From positions 1 through 38,763 of the forward strand of contig JALVTF010000036.1 of the NCBI GenBank assembly GCA_027024145.1: a stretch of 38,763 nt of DNA, given 5' to 3'. The position numbers and the translations under genes were made by a program. Positions 13,528 to 16,538 of this stretch are shown piece by piece (position 1 is the first letter of the stretch; each line of letters opens with the position of its first letter). This DNA is from Campylobacterales bacterium. GTDB lineage: Bacteria > Campylobacterota > Campylobacteria > Campylobacterales > Nitratiruptoraceae. Below the pieces are notes generated by a model. The model ran no database searches. It worked only from the letters and a program-made list of their open reading frames with translations, and was not told where the DNA came from.

Positions 13528-13549
13528 GAAGACTCCTTGAAGGATGGAT

Positions 13550-14368
13550 ATGGAATTTTTCGATATGCTTGAACGTATTATACTATTAGCCGACCCGTAT
13601 GAAAAAATCGCGGCATGCGAAGAGTTTGGCAAAGCCTACAAGGAGCTGCCCAAAGAGCACACCAAAAGCGCGAAGATCTTCGATATGCCTAGCTACGCTG
13701 CGATTTGTACCGTCGTCGATCCCAAGGATGTGCCAAGGCGCTCGCGTTTCGGTACCAAAGAGGGCAGAGCCGTGCTGCTGCATGCTATCGCCCATATCGA
13801 ATATAGTGCTATCGATCTGGCACTTGACGCTGCCTATCGCTATCGAGGTATGCCCGAGGAGTTTTATGCCGACTGGATTGAGGTGGCGCTCGATGAGTGC
13901 AGGCACTTTCGGATGATCGATGCGCTCTTGCATGAGCTTGGCTACAAGTATGGAGATTTTCCTGTCCATCAGGGGCTCTTCGATGCGGCCAGGGCGAGTC
14001 TGGATTTCATCGATCGCATGTGCGTGGTGCCACGTTACTTAGAGGCAAACGGCCTCGATGCCAATCCCAAGATCATCGCCAAGCTCGAAAAATTTCACGA
14101 TCCCTTCGCAGCCAAAATGCGTGAGGCTCTCCAGATAATCCTCGATGAAGAGGTAGGGCATGTCCAAAAAGGAGACAAATGGTTTCGCTGGGCCTGCGAA
14201 AAAGAGGGCATCGAAGATATGGTGAGCGAATATTTTGCAAGAGTGGAGCGTATCTATCCTGGAACGATCCATTCGAAACAGCAGATCAATATCACTGCCC
14301 GCAAGGCTGCGGGATTTAGCTGCGCAGAGATAGAGATGCTTGCGAAAGAGAAAGTTCGTTGTGGATAA
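13550..14368 (+). CDS. DUF455 ferritin-like domain protein
   Basis: 272 residues from the ATG at 13550, which has AAGGA 5 bases upstream; an ATG two codons earlier is also open. The four-helix ferritin-like pattern of metal ligands is visible as HIEYSAIDLALD, DECRHF and EEVGHV, the DUF455 signature. These proteins are expected to carry a di-iron or similar centre, and the family is distantly related to MiaE-type hydroxylases, but the reaction is not established. It is divergently oriented to the hydrolase gene with only about 20 bases between start codons, so at least one promoter overlaps coding sequence. A TATACTAT box lies within its own first codons (near 13576). Confidence 0.87.
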   Translation: MEFFDMLERIILLADPYEKIAACEEFGKAYKELPKEHTKSAKIFDMPSYAAICTVVDPKDVPRRSRFGTKEGRAVLLHAIAHIEYSAIDLALDAAYRYRGMPEEFYADWIEVALDECRHFRMIDALLHELGYKYGDFPVHQGLFDAARASLDFIDRMCVVPRYLEANGLDANPKIIAKLEKFHDPFAAKMREALQIILDEEVGHVQKGDKWFRWACEKEGIEDMVSEYFARVERIYPGTIHSKQQINITARKAAGFSCAEIEMLAKEKVRCG

Positions 14369-14481: not shown

Positions 14482-15609
14482 ATGAAAAAAATTCCTCTTT
14501 TTAGTCGCAAGCATGACCAAAACGAAGTGGAAAAACTCACTGAAGCCATCGAGCGAGGTGGTATGCAAGAGGAACTCGAAGGAGCTTTTGCAGACTATAT
14601 CGGTGCGGACTTCGCCATAGCGACGGCCAACGAAACGGCAGCACTGCATCTGGCTATGACCGCTATCGACCTCAAGCGGGGCGACAAAATCATCTGCAGC
14701 GTCAACGCCTACCCCAACGTGCCTGAAGTTGTACGCCACTTCGATGCGGAGCCGATCTTCGTGGATATCAACGAAGAGGACTTCAATATCGATCTGGATG
14801 AGCTCGAAAAGGTATTGGCAAAAAACAAGAGCAAAAAGCTCAAAGGTGCTATCATCTCCCATGTAGGCGGGCAGCCAACGGACCTCGAGCGCCTCTATGC
14901 GATCGCCGAAGAGTACAATATCCTCATCATCGAGGATGCCACAGAGGCGATGGGAGCCACCTATAACGGCGAGAAAATCGGTGCACTCAAAGCAGATCTC
15001 ACTGCCTTTAGTTTCAATCCCCACAATCGCTATCCCACTGCAAAAGGCGGTATGCTGACGACCTTTAACGAAGAGCTCGACGAACGTGCGAGACTGCTGC
15101 GCCAAAACGCTCTCGTGCGTCGCGAATGGGATGAAGAGGGAAGCCTCGGATATATCTATGATGTGGTGGATATCGGGCTTGAATATGACATGAGCAATCT
15201 CGACGCAGCCTACAATGCGACGCTTTTGGCGAATAACGACGCAGAAATCGCGCGACGCAAGGAGATCGCCGCGATCTATACTAAAGAGCTTGCGAACACT
15301 CCGCATGTCAGTGTACCGCAGCCTCTACGCGAACACAGTTACGAGCTTTTCATGATCAAGGTCGATAAAAACCGTGACTCCTTCGCACGTGAGCTCTACA
15401 AGCGCGGTATCGAAGTGGGCTTGCACTATATTCCTCTGCATCTTCTTAGCTACTACAAGCAAAAGTACAGCCTGCGGGTCAACGACTATCCAAAAGCGCT
15501 GAGAAACTATCAGCAGATTTTGAGCCTACCCATCTATGGAGCCATGAGCGACGATGATGTGGCATACGTAATAGAGCAGGTCAAAGAGGTGGCACAATCA
15601 CACATTTAA
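14482..15609 (+). CDS. DegT/DnrJ/EryC1/StrS-fold protein lacking the PLP lysine
   Basis: 375 residues with the whole fold-type I core of sugar aminotransferases: NETAALHLAM (usually SGTAAL), VDINEEDFNID, the PLP-binding Asp in IIEDATEA and the C-terminal HYIPLH. The motif that normally reads SFHxxKxxxxGEGG reads SFNPHNRYPTAKGG, so the Schiff-base lysine position (residue 182) is Asn. The only nearby Lys is at 188, where Glu is usual. It cannot be a normal aminotransferase if the alignment is right. A dehydratase-like role (ColD uses His there) or a non-catalytic role is possible. It leads the operon with lpxK, so a sugar or lipid A link is plausible but unproven. Confidence 0.85.
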   Translation: MKKIPLFSRKHDQNEVEKLTEAIERGGMQEELEGAFADYIGADFAIATANETAALHLAMTAIDLKRGDKIICSVNAYPNVPEVVRHFDAEPIFVDINEEDFNIDLDELEKVLAKNKSKKLKGAIISHVGGQPTDLERLYAIAEEYNILIIEDATEAMGATYNGEKIGALKADLTAFSFNPHNRYPTAKGGMLTTFNEELDERARLLRQNALVRREWDEEGSLGYIYDVVDIGLEYDMSNLDAAYNATLLANNDAEIARRKEIAAIYTKELANTPHVSVPQPLREHSYELFMIKVDKNRDSFARELYKRGIEVGLHYIPLHLLSYYKQKYSLRVNDYPKALRNYQQILSLPIYGAMSDDDVAYVIEQVKEVAQSHI

Positions 15610-15668: not shown

Positions 15669-16538
15669 ATGTTGTTTCCTATTTCTCTCCTGTACTGTAC
15701 GATAGCGACTTTGCAAAAACTGCTCTGCATAAAGCGCTCCGTTTCCATACCTGTCGTATCCGTAGGGAATCTCATCGTCGGCGGTAGTGGCAAATCTCCT
15801 CTTATCGAGGCTTTGGCGAGTCGCTATGAGGATGCGGCGGTGGTGCTGCGCGGATATGGACGAAAAAGCGAGGGCTTGCAGGTAGTGAGCGAATGGGGGA
15901 AAATCCTCTGTCACGTAGAGTGCAGCGGCGATGAGGCGATGATGCTTGCCAAAGCACTGCCCAAAGCTTGCGTAATCGTAAGCGAAGATCGTCTCACAGG
16001 CATCGCCAAAGCCAAAGAGCTGGGGGCTCAAGTGGTTTTTTTAGACGATGCTTTTCGTCAATGCATCGAAAAGTTCGATATCCTCATCGACCCTAAGCCC
16101 CTCAACCCTTTGTGTCTGCCAAGCGGTCCCTATCGCCTGCCACGCCTCTTTTTGCGTAGCACCGATTTGGTACTGCGAGAGGGCCGAGATTTTTGGCGCA
16201 AAGTGTGGATAGAAAATCCCACGCCAAAGATGGTGCTCGTCACCGCGATAGCCAATCCCAAAAGATTGGAGCGCTATGTGGATCCCGCTATCCCTCGCTA
16301 CTATTTCGCCGACCATCATATATTTGAGCGCCAGGAGATAGAAAAGATCATAGAGCGAGAAAAGCCTACATCCCTTCTCGTCACGGCCAAAGATGCGGTA
16401 AAATTACGAAAATTTGGCTATCCGCTTTCGATTTTGCGCCTCGAGATCGAAGTGGCGCCCGAAGTTTTGGAAAAAATCGACAGCTACATAAGGAACTACG
16501 ATGCAAAAAAAGATCCAAACTGTCCAGACGCTCCTTGA
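15669..16538 (+). CDS. lpxK: Tetraacyldisaccharide 4'-kinase LpxK (real N-terminus probably upstream)
   Basis: 289 residues from the first usual start codon. The P-loop SVGNLIVGGSGKSP, LRGYGRKS and FLDDAF are LpxK motifs. The enzyme phosphorylates the lipid A disaccharide at the inner face of the cytoplasmic membrane. The frame stays open upstream of the ATG and encodes FFEELFYRPRAYHWLAAL, which closely resembles the membrane-binding N-terminal helix of other LpxK proteins. That stretch has no ATG, GTG or TTG; the best-placed candidate is an ATC at 15597 with AGAGGTGG before it, which would give 313 residues. The 3' end overlaps argB by 38 bases. Confidence 0.9.
   Translation: MLFPISLLYCTIATLQKLLCIKRSVSIPVVSVGNLIVGGSGKSPLIEALASRYEDAAVVLRGYGRKSEGLQVVSEWGKILCHVECSGDEAMMLAKALPKACVIVSEDRLTGIAKAKELGAQVVFLDDAFRQCIEKFDILIDPKPLNPLCLPSGPYRLPRLFLRSTDLVLREGRDFWRKVWIENPTPKMVLVTAIANPKRLERYVDPAIPRYYFADHHIFERQEIEKIIEREKPTSLLVTAKDAVKLRKFGYPLSILRLEIEVAPEVLEKIDSYIRNYDAKKDPNCPDAP

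Follow-up and report, generated by a model that had tools for sequence, protein, structure and literature searches.

The gene that precedes lpxK in a Campylobacterales bacterium of the Nitratiruptoraceae codes for a DegT-fold protein that lacks the catalytic lysine of PLP-dependent aminotransferases; it is probably an ancient and functional pseudo-aminotransferase, retained for a non-catalytic function linked to lpxK. The window, i.e. the whole stretch of DNA that was analysed, is 38,763 nt long, and its relevant features are collected in Table 1. We consider it very likely that the family of this protein is dead as a PLP transaminase, and quite likely that the window protein itself is. A structural role was among the options of the original prediction, and it is the one that the analysis favours.

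Table 1. Features of the DegT-like gene and of the start of lpxK in the window
Feature	Position	Strand	Remarks
Probable DegT-fold pseudo-aminotransferase, lpxK-linked	14482..15609	+	375 aa; ATG to TAA, frame intact; 112 orthologues and 20 more
Family-specific invariant block K65-R66-G67-D68-K69	14674..14688	+	Before model strand 69-73
Near-invariant family-specific block R85-H-F-D-A-E-P91	14734..14754	+	Before model strand 90-94
K118-K119, family-specific	14833..14838	+	Before model strand 120-126
Decayed PLP-lysine motif SFNPHNRYPTAKGG	15010..15051	+	Codon 182 is AAT, 15025-15027
Conserved C-terminal substrate-loop segment HYIPLHLLSYYKQKY, residues 315-329	15424..15468	+	Family conservation
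Putative Shine-Dalgarno region AAAGAGGTGGC for lpxK, within the DegT-like 3' end	15582..15592	+	Duplex energy -10.3 with the 16S tail
Probable lpxK AUC start codon	15597..15599	+	10 nt ahead of the DegT-like stop, an offset that the ATC has in all 16 species of the genus
lpxK with proposed extended N-terminus, 313 aa	15597..16538	+	Start of the ORF caller at 15669

Both profile score and fold-type-I structure place the window protein in the DegT/DnrJ/EryC1/StrS family: PF01041 was matched over 357 residues (E 6.3e-84, 282.7 bits against a cut-off of 19.8), and the AlphaFold model (pLDDT 88.3, pTM 0.87) superposes on PseC (2fnu, TM 0.89/0.90) and on ArnB (1mdo, TM 0.86/0.88). In the profile search it matched none of the named NCBIfam subgroups, the best score, 270.1 bits for the PseC equivalog TIGR03588, being well below the cut-off of 423.5. 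With PseC and ArnB it has in common the fold, T52, D152 and the C-terminal HY.P.H...YY loop; its family differs from them in that the catalytic lysine is missing, the phosphate and uracil sites have decayed, new blocks have become invariant and linkage to lpxK is constant. Orthologues are present in 49 of 60 relatives, and 80 named loci were found with the RHFDAEP pattern, among them loci of Nitratiruptor, Sulfurospirillum, Hydrogenimonas, Sulfurimonas and Sulfuricurvum. A sample of the phylum gave an orthologue in 91 of 150 genomes at E<=1e-75, a few of the weakest of which may be other DegT proteins; all the phylum-sample matches listed belong to the same order, Campylobacterales. The lpxK-linked family forms a single clade (SH-aLRT 100) in a tree for which the columns of the motif had been left out.

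The motif around the Schiff-base position reads SFNPHNRYPTAKGG in the window protein versus SFHPVKHITTGEGG in the canonical paralogues of related genomes. The alignment is ungapped and puts Asn182 at the position of the lysine and Lys188 at that of the Glu of GEGG, just as had been proposed from the DNA alone. Among 112 non-redundant Campylobacterales orthologues, residue 182 is M (33), L (31), S (17), K (9-10), R (7), A (4), N (2), T (2) or one of several singletons; Lys is thus absent from 102 of them, while it occupies the equivalent site in all 27 canonical paralogues taken from these genomes. By entropy, site 182 is more variable than 331 of the 350 alignment columns. Neither Lys nor His was found there in 20 further orthologues picked to cover distant families, so that His, the hallmark of ColD-type PMP dehydratases, is seen in 0 of 132. 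Judged by the Schiff-base lysine, the window family does not qualify as a PLP-dependent sugar aminotransferase. Two divergent orthologues, L046 and L047 (G026, G045), have a lysine at or beside 182 in a broken motif (FSIGS-KIDNRFNTG, IAGLGSKVNGRFDAG), where the alignment is uncertain.

The variability of the site leaves the idea of a distinct reaction carried out by an 'Asn variant' without support, and the proposed check, conservation of Asn182 and Lys188 in Campylobacterota homologues, came out negative for both (2 and 3 of 112). A relocated lysine is not supported either: Lys188 is rare, no lysine of the PLP motif is invariant, and the lysines that are conserved (65, 69, 118, 119, 121, 293, 296 and 326) all lie outside it.

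Residue roles in the rest of the cofactor and substrate site were assigned from Spr1654, PseC and ArnB (PMC5936713) and from knowledge of the family. The PLP-phosphate and ring-Asp regions had been described as intact in the window protein. This holds for T52, S177 and D152; it does not for positions 234 and 236, which are E and D, nor for the GEGG Glu, which is K. Family-wide, the ring Asp and the phosphate-binding residues are unevenly kept (D152 in 60/63, T52 in 55/63, G189 in 42/63, S177 in 38/63). Site 177 is S in 38, R in 15 and G in 3 of the 63 sequences, with a few other residues; the Ser is replaced by Arg in the Sulfurospirillum-like branch and by Asp in the Sulfuricurvum-like branch, and Gly189 is frequently Ala. 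The Asn and Arg that the partner subunit normally contributes (NYR motif) are lacking in the family, 234 being K or E and 236 mostly D, and the uracil-pocket Gly at 26 is unconstrained. Some ligand may still enter the pocket, since D152, H127 (57/63), N75 (62/63) and the C-terminal HYIPLHLLSYYKQKY loop with its aromatic residue 316 are retained; in Spr1654/PseC/ArnB the corresponding loop forms part of the wall of the cavity for the nucleotide sugar (PMC5936713). The most decayed orthologues, L203-L206 (G063, G065, G092, G158), have lost the phosphate Thr/Ser and most site residues and are nevertheless located directly before lpxK.

The protein is under strong purifying selection, with a dN/dS of about 0.05-0.08 (dN 0.083 and dS 1.09 between the window and its nearest species; 0.042 and 0.817 for another pair). 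Residues K65, R66, R85, F87, D88, K119, N297, D299, F301 and A302 have become invariant where canonical enzymes vary, and N297-R-D-x-F-A302 constitutes a family-specific block in addition to those of Table 1. The strands of the fold-type-I sheet are ordered a-g-f-e-d-b-c. From this topology, the blocks K65-K69, R85-P91 and K118-K119 would be situated at the pole opposite the PLP site, and should together make one mostly basic surface because the strands that they precede (69-73, 90-94 and 120-126) are neighbours in the sheet.

The claim that the DegT-like gene leads lpxK was borne out well beyond the window. The gene immediately precedes lpxK, in the same orientation, at 109 of the 109 orthologous loci with enough flanking sequence and at 20 of the 20 further ones (129 in total), against 0 of 9 for the canonical paralogues. 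Conserved gene order by itself can reflect shared regulation. Of 12 genomes without the gene, 11 keep lpxK, so the DegT-like gene is not required for lipid A; there, other genes precede lpxK, often one which, by eye, we take to be nadE. In the Campylobacter-like locus L042 the order is MBL-nadE-DegT-lpxK-thrC-kdsB and in L160, which has the same family code, it is MBL-nadE-lpxK-thrC, which looks like a clean loss of the DegT-like gene. On the other side, a ferritin-like gene (13544-14368 in the window; presumably DUF455, a label given by eye) stands directly before the DegT-like gene at the majority of loci from the taxonomic family of the window, and also in certain other families; at other loci, such as L014, L021 and L025, it is not in that place. 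Our search of the literature found no DegT/lpxK link, no DegT pseudoenzyme and no AUC-started lpxK.

Across the order, the start of lpxK lies inside the 3' end of the DegT-like gene or closely follows it. In the window the true start is probably 15597, not the called 15669. The starts called in the genus remove the conserved LpxK N-terminus and, for two of the species, cut into the P-loop as well. At the homologous start, none of the 16 species of the genus (L001-L015, L020) has an ATG, GTG or TTG; the exceptions are further in, a TTG at codon +3 in one species and an ATG ten codons in for two. In L004 and L020 the first such codon is at +82 and +60, beyond the start of the P-loop (VGN..GKT). 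In all 16 an ATC is present instead, preceded by AAAGAGGTGG or a close variant, and the mean duplex energy with the 16S tail is -10.0 at this ATC versus -2.5 at the first downstream canonical start (background 17-mers from the window: mean -2.6, 1st percentile -9.9). The lpxK of the window genus thus combines the lack of a canonical start with a conserved alternative codon and its Shine-Dalgarno sequence, as expected of a noncanonical start. The A of ATC is the third-codon position in the DegT frame, and it stays A in CAA, AAA, CGA and AGA; yet CAG is as frequent as CAA in the DegT-like genes. The stretch between the ATC and the called start has a coding-like pattern of substitution (entropy of 1.05, 0.82 and 1.50 by codon position), and the proposed N-terminal extension matches the N-terminus of other LpxK proteins. 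As another way into the lpxK frame, -1 frameshifting was considered and rejected: no slippery site was visible by eye, and L005 and L009 have a stop in the lpxK frame immediately before the ATC. Outside the genus, L026 is a single case of an lpxK without ATG, GTG or TTG 45-66 codons before the P-loop, with ATA or ATT instead.

On this comparative basis, lpxK appears to be initiated at AUC in the cell. Noncanonical starts repressed by IF3 are on record for infC (ATT in E. coli, ATC in Streptomyces) and sigR (GTC) (PMC5472188). The proposed start of lpxK resembles them in being other than AUG, GUG or UUG; it differs by the nature of the gene, and in that both initiation at AUC and control by IF3 are here putative.

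Several other readings of the DegT-like protein were weighed. That relatives with a normal lysine might betray an isolated pseudogene mutation had been foreseen, and such relatives do exist: residue 182 is Lys in 8, Arg in 5, Asn in 2 and Gly in 1 of the 16 species of the window genus. An isolated mutation is nevertheless ruled out by the dN/dS values and the intact orthologues, nearly all other genera being without the lysine and the protein being under purifying selection. PLP binding may occur in the K182 part of the family, since half of the genus has the residue, and these congeners could be true transaminases that regained it, with S177, T52 and D152 in place, the Asn of the window and the Gly of a sister species then marking recent pseudogenisation. 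We find this last scenario unlikely. Within the genus tree the residue changed between Lys and R, N or G on no fewer than three separate occasions, the lysine-bearing members also lack the GEGG Glu and the equivalents of N234 and R236, and the window protein and its nearest neighbour have intact frames and a dN/dS of about 0.08. Drift between neighbouring codons, or a lysine regained and then not kept, is the likeliest account of the pattern. ColD-type dehydratases work with a His in place of the lysine, and the family could likewise be an active lysine-less enzyme, using PMP or PLP without a Schiff base and His/Gln181 or Asn182 as acid-base on a sugar nucleotide. The F-x-F-[SN]-P-[HQ] stretch ahead of 182 is indeed conserved for the most part, and the sugar-binding loop persists, as do D152 and H127. 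However, in ColD and E1-type PMP-dependent dehydratases, which share with the window family the DegT fold without the Schiff-base lysine, the His is fixed and the cofactor site is kept. Here, His is never found at 182 and M, L, S, A, G, V and R are tolerated, whole lineages have replaced the phosphate Ser by Arg or Asp, and neither the GEGG Glu nor the Asn/Arg of the partner subunit has survived, which makes such an activity quite improbable.

SPTLC1-type inactive fold-type-I subunits retain a PLP fold without its lysine, as does the window family, which could be the inactive subunit paired with a canonical DegT aminotransferase in a heterodimer, in the manner of SPTLC1 in serine palmitoyltransferase. 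DegT enzymes dimerise, and their active sites are shared between the subunits (PMC5936713); nearly every examined genome with the gene has at least one canonical paralogue. The SPTLC1 model implies a constant active partner, and none was found: in genomes with two DegT genes the other copy belongs to differing subfamilies (SFNGNK in G000 and G027, SFHAIK in G030, SFYATK in G032, SFFPAK in G022), and the canonical paralogues are never lpxK-linked (0/9). We accordingly give this pairing a low probability. Lastly, the gene could owe its retention to its translation alone, which as a leader would set lpxK expression through translational coupling, with a protein product of next to no importance; this would suit the position of the lpxK start across the order and, in one genus, the putative AUC and Shine-Dalgarno sequence inside the gene. 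A leader alone would leave unexplained 375 intact codons, a dN/dS of 0.05-0.08 and invariant residues throughout the protein, and we regard it as very improbable.

The favoured reading, a retained pseudo-aminotransferase, also has a plausible origin. By profile score the nearest relatives with an intact lysine (L050, L063, L216 and L217; motif SFYATKTL[SA]TGEGG) belong to glycan clusters; the gene immediately downstream of each resembles a sugar transferase and is taken, by eye and not by profile, to be PglC/WcaJ-like. They share with the window family K65-x-G-D and, at the position of RHFDAEP, YF[DNK]A[IK]P; they differ in keeping the Lys, GEGG and Gly26 and in preceding that transferase rather than lpxK. 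This lineage is a candidate donor of the DegT-like gene, and from its setting the source of the family was likely an ancestral UDP-sugar aminotransferase. An ArnB/PseC-like enzyme of a glycan-assembly cluster would have been captured upstream of lpxK early in the Campylobacterales and would then have shed the PLP lysine along with a good part of its cofactor-binding site, and with them transamination. What was kept would be the fold, some of the sugar-binding loop and newly fixed charged residues opposite the active site; such a retention implies a binding role, and the protein might act as a scaffold, regulator or sensor. Its task would most likely be tied to LpxK, made by coupled translation, or to lipid A assembly, since the gene is always 5' of lpxK and carries the lpxK Shine-Dalgarno and AUC in the genus; we hold this link to LpxK or lipid A at somewhat under even confidence. 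The full proposal, an order-wide pseudo-aminotransferase serving as dedicated partner or regulator of LpxK, which acts at a conserved lipid A step in the making of the outer membrane, with a Nitratiruptor-type 3' end that drives AUC-initiated, IF3-sensitive and coupled LpxK synthesis, is more doubtful and is put forward tentatively.

To conclude, the name 'DegT aminotransferase', given on fold alone in many genomes, is very likely wrong for this large and ancient lineage, whose conserved surface points to something other than transamination. The order concerned takes in Sulfurospirillum, Sulfurimonas and, as we infer, many Campylobacter and Helicobacter species. With the gene in a fixed place before lpxK, it becomes possible to test for an accessory step so far missing from lipid A assembly; and if the AUC start of lpxK is true, an envelope gene joins the very short list of genes using such codons.
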